Of a stretch of 16,424 bases of DNA, positions 2,953-5,555 are shown in pieces. The stretch lies in contig JAISFX010000017.1 in the NCBI GenBank assembly GCA_031263385.1, forward strand, positions 1 to 16,424. The letters run 5' to 3'. Source of the stretch: Lactobacillus sp. (lineage in GTDB: Bacteria; Pseudomonadota; Alphaproteobacteria; RF32; CAG-239). A program made the position numbers and the translations under genes. The notes under the pieces were generated by a model. The model was not told where the DNA came from, did not search any database, and saw only the letters and a program-made list of their open reading frames with translations. Within the stretch, counting starts at the first letter, position 1; each line of letters begins with the position of its first letter.

Positions 2953-3552
2953 TTATTCTCCAACGACTTTTCTGGAATTTACCGCCAGTTGAATAGTCCC
3001 TTCATCCATATAATCAAGCTCTGCCCCCATGGGGATTCCCTGAGCTAGGGTAGAAACTTTTACATTGCTGTCTTTTAGGCGCGCTGTCAGGTAATGAGCT
3101 GTAATCTGTCCGTCAACCGTTGCCGGCAGAGCCAAAATCACTTCGCTGATTTCTTCTTCTGTAACGCGGGCCAGCATGCTTTCAATATTTAGATCTTCGG
3201 GGGTAACGCCGTCCAGTGCCGATAATATCCCCCCCAGAATATGATACTTTCCTTTGAAGAAAGACACTCTCTCCATTGCCCACAAATCAGCAACATCTTG
3301 CACCACGCACAAAATGCCGTTTTTTCTTTTTTCATCTTCACAAATAGAGCAGGGGGATTGCGTGTCAAAATTACCGCATATTTCGCAGGTCTTTACATTA
3401 TTGGCAACATCAGTCAAAGCCTCAATCAGCGGCAAAAACAAAGTATCGCGCTTTTGCAAAAGCTGCAAAACAATACGCCTTGAAGACCTCGCTCCTAAAG
3501 ACGGCAGTTTTGCCACCAACTTCACCAATTTATCAATATCTTTGCCTGCCAT
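2953..3552 (-). CDS. recR: Recombination mediator protein RecR
   Basis: RecR works with RecO and RecF to load RecA onto gapped single-stranded DNA. The 199-residue length is standard. The N-terminus has the helix-hairpin-helix region (LPSLGARSSRRIVLQLL, about residues 16-32). A C4 zinc finger has Cys56, Cys59, Cys68 and Cys71. The Toprim domain follows from about residue 80 (ILCVVQDVADLWAMER), and then the family-typical TVDGQITAHYL and STLAQGIPMGAELDYMDEGT. The gene sits 13 bases downstream of ybaB and its stop is two bases before the GlmU-like ATG, so translation of the four genes dnaX-ybaB-recR-GlmU-like is probably coupled. Confidence 0.98.
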   Translation of the reverse strand: MAGKDIDKLVKLVAKLPSLGARSSRRIVLQLLQKRDTLFLPLIEALTDVANNVKTCEICGNFDTQSPCSICEDEKRKNGILCVVQDVADLWAMERVSFFKGKYHILGGILSALDGVTPEDLNIESMLARVTEEEISEVILALPATVDGQITAHYLTARLKDSNVKVSTLAQGIPMGAELDYMDEGTIQLAVNSRKVVGE

Positions 3553-3565
3553 ACCCGTTCTCTGC

Positions 3566-3874
3566 TTACATACCGAAAGGCATTTTCATTCCGCCGGTAA
3601 CATTCCCCATAGCGCTGGATGTTTTTGCATCAACTTTTGCTTTGGCATCATTAAAAGCGGCCATAATCAAGTCCTCTAAAATCTCTGTATCTTCGGGGTC
3701 TACCAAAGACTTATCGAGGCTGATTTTTTTCATATCAAATCTTCCGTTAAGAACAACTTTAACCATTCCCCCGCCGGAAGACCCTTCAACCTCTTCTTTT
3801 TCAAGCTGCTCTTGTGCCTCTGCCATTTTCTTTTGCATAGCCTGAGCTTGCCTCATAATCATTTGAATATCCAT
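3566..3874 (-). CDS. ybaB: YbaB/EbfC family nucleoid-associated protein
   Basis: This 102-residue protein has the hallmarks of YbaB/EbfC DNA-binding proteins. It has a Met/Gln-rich N-terminal helix (MRQAQAMQKKMAEAQEQLEK), a Gly-rich turn (SSGGGMVKVVLNG, about residues 32-44), and a central ISLDKSLVDPEDTEILEDLI segment ending in AAFNDAKAKVD. The Gly/Met-rich tail (GNVTGGMKMPFGM) is also typical. Members form dimers that bind DNA with little sequence preference and contribute to nucleoid organisation. The gene lies between dnaX and recR, the most conserved neighbourhood of this family. The dnaX stop is one base upstream of its ATG, and a GAGGA element in the dnaX tail may serve as the ribosome site. 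Confidence 0.96.
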   Translation of the reverse strand: MDIQMIMRQAQAMQKKMAEAQEQLEKEEVEGSSGGGMVKVVLNGRFDMKKISLDKSLVDPEDTEILEDLIMAAFNDAKAKVDAKTSSAMGNVTGGMKMPFGM

Positions 3875-3875
3875 T

Positions 3876-5555
3876 TTATATTATATCCTCCTCAAACAAC
3901 AATTCTTCTTCAGAATCATTTTCCATTTGTTCTTGCACTTTTCGCACTAAACTTTCTATTTTAGCACCTTTAAACTCTGCCAGAATAGCTCTTACTAAAG
4001 GATACTCTGAAACATCTCTCTGGTCATTCTCTGTTTGCGCTTTTTCAACATCTGCAATAGTCTCGCCCAATACTCCGCGAGAACTGTCAATCTTCCACTG
4101 TTTTCCGGTTGCTTCGGTCAATACTTTGTGCAGATTTAATATATAATCCATATCAAGCTTGTCAGACATCACCATTTTTATATACCCGTCCTTGAACTCT
4201 GATATTGATATATCATTTTTCAAAGAATACATCATGCGCACTTTCTTAGTGTCATCCAAAAGCTTAACCAAATCTGCGGTGGTATTGAGAATAGCGCCGT
4301 TGCTGTTGTTGCTGTTTGCCGCCATAACGGCAACAGCCTCGCTTTTAGGGGCTTGAGCTATAGGCTCTTTAGGGGTGTTTATGCTGAAATTAGAGTTTTT
4401 TTTTACGTCATCCAAAATCTGGGCTGGCGTTGGCATGTTTGCAGAATATGCAATTCTTATTAAAATCATTTCCACCGCATCTATCTGCGAAGGCGCAATA
4501 TTAAGCTCGCTAAGACCTTTAATCAGCATTTGCCATATTTTAGAAAGAACTGCCACAGAAATATTTGGAGACAGCTTTTTGCAAAGCTCTTTTTCGTTCT
4601 CTGTCAAAGACAAATCATTAATAAAAGCCGGTGCAATTTTAGCCTTTGCAACCATATGAGTAATATTGATTAAGTCTTGTATTAATGTATAAGGGTTAGC
4701 GCCATTTTTGTATTGTTCTTGCAGGTTTTTAATAACCTTATTAACATCGCCGCTGACCAAGGCTTCAAACAAATCAAAAGTCTGATTTCTGTCTGCCAGA
4801 CCAATCATCTCTTTAACCACCTCAGTTTTAACAGAACCTGAGCCCAAAGAAATCGCTTGGTCTAGGAGAGACAAGCCGTCGCGGGCAGAACCGTCCGCAG
4901 CTTTAGCAATAATATGCAAAGCTTCTTCATCGCCTTTCCAGCCTTCATTGTTAATGATTTTATTAAACAGCTTAGTTAAATCTTCAATAGTCAATCTTTG
5001 CAAGTCAAAGCGCTGGCAACGAGACAATACCGTAACCGGCACTTTTCTAATCTCTGTTGTTGCGAATATAAATTTTACATGAGAAGGGGGTTCTTCCAAG
5101 GTCTTCAATAACGCATTAAAAGCGTTTTTAGAAAGCATGTGAACCTCATCGATGATATATACTTTGTACCTGGCATTTGTTGGTTTATATCTTACGCCGT
5201 CCAAAATCTCTCTAATATCATCAACGCCTGTTCTTGAGGCAGCGTCTAACTCTAAAACATCAATATGTCTGTCTGCGGCAATAGCTTTACAGTTTTCGCA
5301 TACTCCGCATGGGTTGATAGTAGGGCCTCCGCTGCCGTCTACACCGGTACAGTTGAGAGCTTTTGCAAGAATTCTGGCGGTAGTAGTTTTTCCTGTTCCG
5401 CGGATTCCCGTAAGCATATATGCGTGATGTAGGCGGTTGTTTTTGATAGCATTTGTAAGTGTCTGAACAAGCGCATCCTGCCCCAGCAAATCATCAAAAT
5501 TCTGCGGGCGATATTTTCTCGCTAAAACTACATATTGTTTATCTTCTTGTTCCAA
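3876..5555 (-). CDS. dnaX: DNA polymerase III subunits tau (and probably gamma)
   Basis: DnaX is the ATPase of the clamp loader, which places the beta clamp on DNA; its long form, tau, also tethers the polymerase. In order: Walker A GIRGTGKT (residues 50-57), a zinc site with Cys69, Cys83, Cys86 and Cys89, Walker B IIDEVH (134-139), the SRC sensor (178-180), and domain III to about residue 370. A linker and a tau-specific C-terminal region to residue 559 follow. The start is TTG at 5555: an in-frame TGA lies two codons upstream of it, and the next usable start would remove the conserved LARKYRPQNFDDLLGQ region. GAGAAG is a possible ribosome site. A run of nine A at codons 384-387 may produce a short gamma form (separate entry). 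The SRP RNA gene lies 33 bases upstream. Confidence 0.97.
   Translation of the reverse strand: MEQEDKQYVVLARKYRPQNFDDLLGQDALVQTLTNAIKNNRLHHAYMLTGIRGTGKTTTARILAKALNCTGVDGSGGPTINPCGVCENCKAIAADRHIDVLELDAASRTGVDDIREILDGVRYKPTNARYKVYIIDEVHMLSKNAFNALLKTLEEPPSHVKFIFATTEIRKVPVTVLSRCQRFDLQRLTIEDLTKLFNKIINNEGWKGDEEALHIIAKAADGSARDGLSLLDQAISLGSGSVKTEVVKEMIGLADRNQTFDLFEALVSGDVNKVIKNLQEQYKNGANPYTLIQDLINITHMVAKAKIAPAFINDLSLTENEKELCKKLSPNISVAVLSKIWQMLIKGLSELNIAPSQIDAVEMILIRIAYSANMPTPAQILDDVKKNSNFSINTPKEPIAQAPKSEAVAVMAANSNNSNGAILNTTADLVKLLDDTKKVRMMYSLKNDISISEFKDGYIKMVMSDKLDMDYILNLHKVLTEATGKQWKIDSSRGVLGETIADVEKAQTENDQRDVSEYPLVRAILAEFKGAKIESLVRKVQEQMENDSEEELLFEEDII
4396..4404 (-). promoter_or_regulatory. Candidate dnaX slippage site (A9) for gamma synthesis
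   Basis: On the coding strand nine A follow GT: the codons are GTA AAA AAA AAC (V384 K385 K386 N387). Both A AAA AAA and A AAA AAC are in the X XXY YYZ phase needed for -1 ribosomal slippage. A9 is also the type of run reported for transcriptional slippage in Thermus thermophilus dnaX. One extra A, or a -1 shift, gives K387 L388 stop (388 residues). Loss of one A gives T L I S A stop (391 residues). The site lies about 15 residues past the end of clamp-loader domain III, where a gamma-type product should end. No strong upstream Shine-Dalgarno-like stimulator is seen, and the only nearby hairpin (GAGC/GCTC, loop 5) is weak. This favours transcriptional over ribosomal slippage, if it is real. 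It is the longest A/T homopolymer I noticed in the window. Confidence 0.55.

Follow-up and report, generated by a model that had tools for sequence, protein, structure and literature searches.

Several routes by which dnaX, the gene for the gamma/tau subunit of DNA polymerase III, can give a long protein (tau) and a short one (gamma) have been described. Thermus thermophilus uses transcriptional slippage on a run of nine A's (A9); its tau is encoded by one open reading frame (ORF) that contains the run, and each of the two alternative frames soon meets a stop (PMC1088944, PMC5009743). Escherichia coli uses a -1 ribosomal frameshift at A_AAA_AAG, together with a Shine-Dalgarno element and a stem-loop. 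For E. coli, a review links the dnaX shift to the sole tRNA-Lys of this bacterium and speaks of considerable controversy around gamma (PMC5009743). Antonov et al. described in 2013 a two-ORF form of dnaX, in which tau needs recoding, in 17 genes from 12 genera; this reversed layout is thus already published for other bacteria, and Figure S3 of that paper contains nine A10 species, one of which may be an alphaproteobacterium (PMC3711429). In Caulobacter crescentus, by contrast, gamma is produced from tau post-translationally by ClpXP, and this was the one alphaproteobacterial route to gamma that we found in the literature searched (PMC5422525). Among the papers listed by our searches of the open literature, none deals with recoding of dnaX in this class. 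The need for two lengths of DnaX, and the reason for it, have long been disputed.

Here we examine a dnaX gene whose layout resembles that of Thermus. The window, by which we mean the whole stretch of 16,424 bases that was analysed, holds a single homopolymer of at least nine bases, and this A9 run lies within dnaX. A preliminary description of this DNA had placed the run at codons 384-387, between clamp-loader domain III and the tau-only region, and both the sequence and the Pfam matches agree with that placement. The features of the gene are as follows.

3876..5555, minus strand: dnaX, DNA polymerase III gamma/tau subunit, TTG start, 559 amino acids
4410..4829, minus strand: clamp-loader domain III, PF12169 (Pfam, residues 245-384 of the 561-residue frame)
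4396..4404, minus strand: A9 run (T9 on the plus strand) in codons 384-387 of the TTG numbering, where slippage is proposed
4390..4392, minus strand: TAA reached when an A is added or the frame shifts by -1, predicted product ending VKKKL, 388 amino acids
4379..4381, minus strand: TAA met after one A lost or a +1 shift, predicted product ending VKKTLISA, 391 amino acids
3954..4286, minus strand: tau C-terminal domain, PF12362 (DUF3646; Pfam, coordinates converted from residues 426-536 of the 561-residue frame)

The open frame extends to 5561, which gives 561 residues, and in this numbering the run starts at codon 386, right after domain III. The site reads GAC GTA AAA AAA AAC TCT AAT TTC AGC ATA A, and the earlier reading of its frames holds: an extra A leads to K-L-stop (388 residues), a lost A leads to T-L-I-S-A-stop (391 residues), and A_AAA_AAA and A_AAA_AAC both lie in -1 slippery phase within the run. 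The tau domain is in frame 0, so the window has the Thermus-type arrangement of a run of about nine A's at the gamma/tau border with tau in a single ORF, and not that of a two-ORF dnaX. Solved clamp-loader gamma and tau chains, which we take to be those of E. coli, align to residues 7 to 377-379 of the window's 559; the predicted gamma would therefore retain the entire clamp-loading part, while PF12362 is predicted to be absent from it. Two further ORFs lie 3' of dnaX at window positions 2953-3874, one at 3566-3874 that presumably corresponds to ybaB and one at 2953-3552 that presumably corresponds to recR; dnaX-ybaB-recR is the usual gene order.

The site is more widespread than the preliminary description could show, being order-wide and recurring in other families of the class. 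The order was sampled with 153 genomes, 152 in one family and one (G031) in another, with the window's genus represented by the window genome alone, and dnaX DNA across the site was obtained from 144 of them. The other nine comprise G147, whose contig stops before the site, G063 and G170, each represented by a part of the gene, five genomes with no match of DnaX strength (G018, G070, G080, G097 and G156) and one with no match (G107); locus L031 was omitted as a duplicate, having the same contig as L183 and an identical site sequence. The A run is present in all 144 genes, as A9 in 90, A10 in 52 and A11 in two. Within 247 kb of the order's dnaX genes, runs of at least nine A's occur 144 times at this site, 33 times at a second site in the linker and once elsewhere. 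At the protein level, the best 120 of 8000 scored matches, which include the window's own DnaX, carry VKKN at the site in 119 cases and LKKN in one; the named organisms among these 120 are Azospirillum sp. 47_25 and Candidatus Scatocola faecipullorum, the latter assigned by NCBI to Alphaproteobacteria, Rhodospirillales.

The length of the run keeps tau in frame in 142 of the 144 genes. In the remaining two (L249 from G153 and L250 from G136), A11 replaces A10, the short product is in frame 0 and tau lies in another frame, which may be a natural reversal or a draft-assembly error. Assembly error is also possible for an additional in-frame stop within the tau linker of L253 (G059) and for an apparent frame break close to the tau end of L228 (G058).

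Stops close behind the run are conserved in both wrong frames. Their statistics were drawn from 142 genes of the order, the two A11 genes being left out, and compared with 74,676 control positions elsewhere in these genes. A stop within six codons is found in the -1 frame in 99.3% of the genes versus 47% of control positions, in the +1 frame in 99.3% versus 34%, and in both frames together in 98.6% versus 13.6%. Resampling synonymous codons in 141 genes with the protein held fixed yields 52% for the -1 frame, 43% for the +1 frame and 21% for both. At the tightest threshold, within two codons, the +1 stop shows no enrichment (5.6% versus 16.3% of controls) because it usually falls at the third codon. 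A first null, which scored stops no farther away than the one observed where the later resampling used a fixed threshold, gave mean per-gene probabilities of 0.45 (-1), 0.42 (+1) and 0.19 (both), so that no individual gene is decisive. The product for both stops over one representative of each of 17 genera is 10^-15.4, a figure that ignores kinship; since the order's sequences share kinship, multiplied probabilities exaggerate their independence. The equal conservation of the -1 stop and the +1 stop fits transcripts that both lose and gain A's, a pattern that gain and loss of A's requires and that -1 ribosomal shifting alone does not.

Selection is also evident on the nucleotides of the run. 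A tree of 141 DnaX proteins (FastTree, midpoint-rooted, without support values), built without the partial genes L251, L253 and L254, served to count codon changes. On this tree neither Lys codon of the run undergoes a synonymous change, compared with 5-40 AAA/AAG changes in each of 29 further columns with Lys in 60% or more of the sequences. The codon preceding the run encodes Val, Leu or Ile and shows 14 first-base changes versus one third-base change, its third base being A in 140 of 141 sequences; the exception, L226, has ATT and retains A10 with a shifted start. Apart from these, any column whose third base changes no more than twice encodes Met or Trp. The preliminary description had proposed an alignment of relatives in which the run and both off-frame stops should be kept while synonymous sites vary, and had named relatives that lack the run or interrupt it with AAG as evidence against the site. 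The order follows the former pattern, with other Lys codons varying synonymously, and all 144 genes have the run, AAG occupying the two Lys codons in none of 141 sequences. Given each gene's amino acids and codon usage, the mean probability of an A run of nine is 0.24 (142 genes); such a run is thus not rare within the codon usage of one gene, and the case depends on joint conservation. These comparisons mark the A9 run as a site under selection, very probably for slippage.

A constraint on the protein would offer another account, in which the linker requires V/L/I-K-K-N/K and AT-rich codon use supplies the A's incidentally. The invariance of KK at the site (141 of 141 sequences) and the share of AAA among Lys codons elsewhere in the order's dnaX genes (78%) agree with this, but the lack of synonymous change in the run's codons, the conservation of both stops and the retention of A10 in L226 despite its shifted start do not. 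Forms ending in A make up 140 of the 141 preceding codons, versus 14% (GTA), 22% (TTA) and 21% (ATA) of the respective codon families elsewhere in these genes, and on this third-base pattern we reject protein constraint alone, which is strongly disfavoured and, as a full explanation, very improbable. We also regard as improbable a chance homopolymer, or a DNA-level phase variation in which replication slippage takes the place of a per-transcript event. Lengths of 9, 10 and 11 are indeed found, with tau out of frame in both A11 genes; however, the run length leaves tau in frame in nearly every gene of the order, and on-off switching of tau would presumably be costly in a gene for replication. 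The joint conservation of the stops, the conservation of the codons and the synonymous-codon null rule out chance.

A further question is which machine slips. A -1 ribosomal frameshift on A_AAA_AAA or A_AAA_AAC would leave the mRNA unchanged and give the same K-L-stop, 388-residue gamma. Consistent with this are the in-phase heptamers, the near-universal -1 stop, and the position of tau in the -1 frame after A_AAA_AAG or C_CCA_AAR in related orders, which makes -1 shifting in dnaX plausible within the class. GAAGGAA lies immediately 5' of the run in many A10 genes, at close spacing, Shine-Dalgarno pairing of -5 kcal/mol or stronger occurs in 10 of the 144 genes, and downstream folds are stable in some (z < -2 in 8 of 144, or 5.6%, L170, L188 and L113 among them). 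Neither stimulator is conserved, however: pairing of -6 kcal/mol or stronger is found in 3 of 144 genes, downstream structure shows no excess (mean fold z +0.09 over the 144), and no Shine-Dalgarno or stem-loop feature is common to the order's genes. The window itself has a Shine-Dalgarno duplex energy of -3.1 kcal/mol (z -0.46) and a fold of the 71 bases 3' of the run at z -0.02, in line with the weak stimulators noted earlier. A_AAA_AAG, the best E. coli heptamer, is present in only two of the 144 genes (L202 and L233) and is missing from the window's run, and the +1 stop is conserved to the same degree as the -1 stop. In addition, G013, from the same family as the window, has tRNA-Lys(CUU) as well as tRNA-Lys(UUU) (30 of its 37 tRNA matches were covered as loci), whereas the E. 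coli shift is tied to a sole tRNA-Lys in the review (PMC5009743).

Together, the lack of a conserved Shine-Dalgarno element or hairpin, the rarity of A_AAA_AAG and the conserved +1 stop favour Thermus-like transcriptional slippage, the route that the preliminary description had also preferred. From sequence comparison, we consider slippage by RNA polymerase the probable event at the run and ribosomal frameshifting an unlikely one. Published experiments and surveys bear on this choice: in many bacterial genomes, selection against A/T slippage runs becomes visible at a length of nine (PMC1088944), a truncated ribosome-sliding product in a cell-free E. coli system was robust on A11 and little on A9 or A10 (PMC4363877), and a 9-A reporter cassette gave 40% frameshifting in E. 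coli, the slipping machine not being separated (PMC3711429).

The retention of the run in every gene across the site, with stops close by in the wrong frames, suggests that slippage very probably lets dnaX yield two clamp-loader proteins, one long and one short. Overall, programmed and chiefly transcriptional slippage on A9, yielding tau and gamma, is in our judgement the best explanation and a probable one. RNA polymerase would slip on the run; mRNAs with 9 or 9+3n A's would be read through to the 559-residue tau, and on those with other counts translation would pass into the -1 or +1 frame. There an off-frame stop, mostly within six codons, would terminate translation directly after domain III and give a gamma of 388-391 residues that keeps the clamp-loading domains, is missing the tau domain and would be used by the cell alongside tau. 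This slippage likely arose independently of the Thermus case.

A second A9 or A10 run occurs in 33 of the 144 genes (for example L120, L171 and L182), about 11-26 codons downstream of the first and in another codon phase; the window dnaX has none. By genus, it is found in 16 of the 16 genes of g4 that reach the site, in 7 of 7 of g7 and in 5 of 6 of g8, plus five other genes, and L133 has a further extra run 59 codons downstream of the first. Of these 34 extra runs (the 33 and that of L133), 24 are followed by a stop in each of the two alternative frames no more than six codons on, and ten are not. The second run looks like a tandem slippage site, the duller alternative being a Lys-rich linker.

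Beyond the order, we compared 199 unique DnaX loci, defining the border zone as -10 to +35 codons from the end of domain III. Runs of at least nine A's lie near the border in 28 of the 199 (1.10 per kb), with eight elsewhere in those stretches (0.028 per kb); 15 of the 28 come from the order of G036 and one (L270) from another order, both sampled because the run had already been seen there. The 13 border runs outside the order of G036 include that of Marinicaulis sp. OFTM318 (L088), where A9 sits at the matching place in a gene of 61% G+C with a -1 stop two codons on. The AT-rich genes L014, L023, L097, L109, L308, L322 and L327 have A runs that are shorter or placed elsewhere. In L358/L319, from the order of G227, and in L314, A_AAA_AAG has a -1 stop one or two codons behind it, which is the E. 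coli arrangement. Tau lies in frame 0, with the border free of candidate heptamers, in 135 of the 199 loci, so the slippage feature is far from universal in the class; these 135 may follow the ClpXP route described for Caulobacter (PMC5422525), or may make no gamma.

The reverse layout, with gamma apparently in frame 0 and tau in the -1 frame, is seen here in three other alphaproteobacterial orders. In that of G036 (L017 and L256-L269), all 15 genes close frame 0 within a few codons of an A9/A10-G run and leave the -1 frame open for another 64-187 codons. Four of the five genes tested (L256, L263, L268 and L269) have the Pfam tau domain in that frame at E-values of 1e-26 to 1e-30, and L266 gives a weak match below the Pfam cut-off (E 0.003); tau in this order therefore seems to depend on a frame shift. 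Four of the five genes in the order of G227 (L359-L362) are reversed at C_CCA_AAG, C_CCA_AAA or A_AAA_AAG, the fifth (L358) having tau in frame 0, and G275, the sole genome of its order, has the reversed layout as well (L299/L357). Candidate shift sites across these genes also include AAA AAG GGG. The -1 frame matches to Pfam tau are above the cut-off in L357, L359, L360 and L361 (E 2e-19 to 2e-18) and weak in L362 (6e-4). Short frame-0 ends in L107, L110, L291, L302, L304, L305, L306 and L317 were not counted as reversed.

We think it somewhat better than an even bet that a whole alphaproteobacterial order makes gamma through RNA polymerase slippage and not through ClpXP, with tandem runs in some genera, and that the class as a whole has moved among gamma-giving slippage, tau-giving slippage or frameshifting, and proteolysis. 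One class apparently reaching both proteins by several unrelated means would be evidence of selection for the short form. The A9, A10, shifted A10, tandem and reversed sites constitute a natural experiment on slippage by polymerase versus ribosome, and dependence on ClpXP for gamma is predicted to vary among alphaproteobacteria.

We place the order's site among the known dnaX recoding sites, nearest to that of Thermus; its lineage, its order-wide fixation, the tandem sites and the patchwork inside one class look new. Like Thermus thermophilus dnaX, the window gene has tau in one ORF, a sense-strand A9 and near stops in the two alternative frames; unlike it, the site is found in another bacterial class, the order's runs measure 9-11 A's with C, T or G as the next base, and in a subset of genes the linker adds another A9/A10 run. 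The Thermus type is also marked by varied A counts in mRNA and a gamma:tau ratio of about 1:1. With E. coli the window shares the gene, the outcome (predicted here) and a -1 stop soon after the run, but in the order the heptamer of the E. coli signal of A_AAA_AAG, Shine-Dalgarno element and stem-loop is confined to two genes, its stimulators are unconserved and a +1 stop is conserved. As in two-ORF dnaX, an A run marks the point where the short and long products diverge, but it is tau and not gamma that occupies frame 0 in the window. Caulobacter belongs to the same class and has the same two-product outcome that we predict for the window, but reaches it by a post-translational route.
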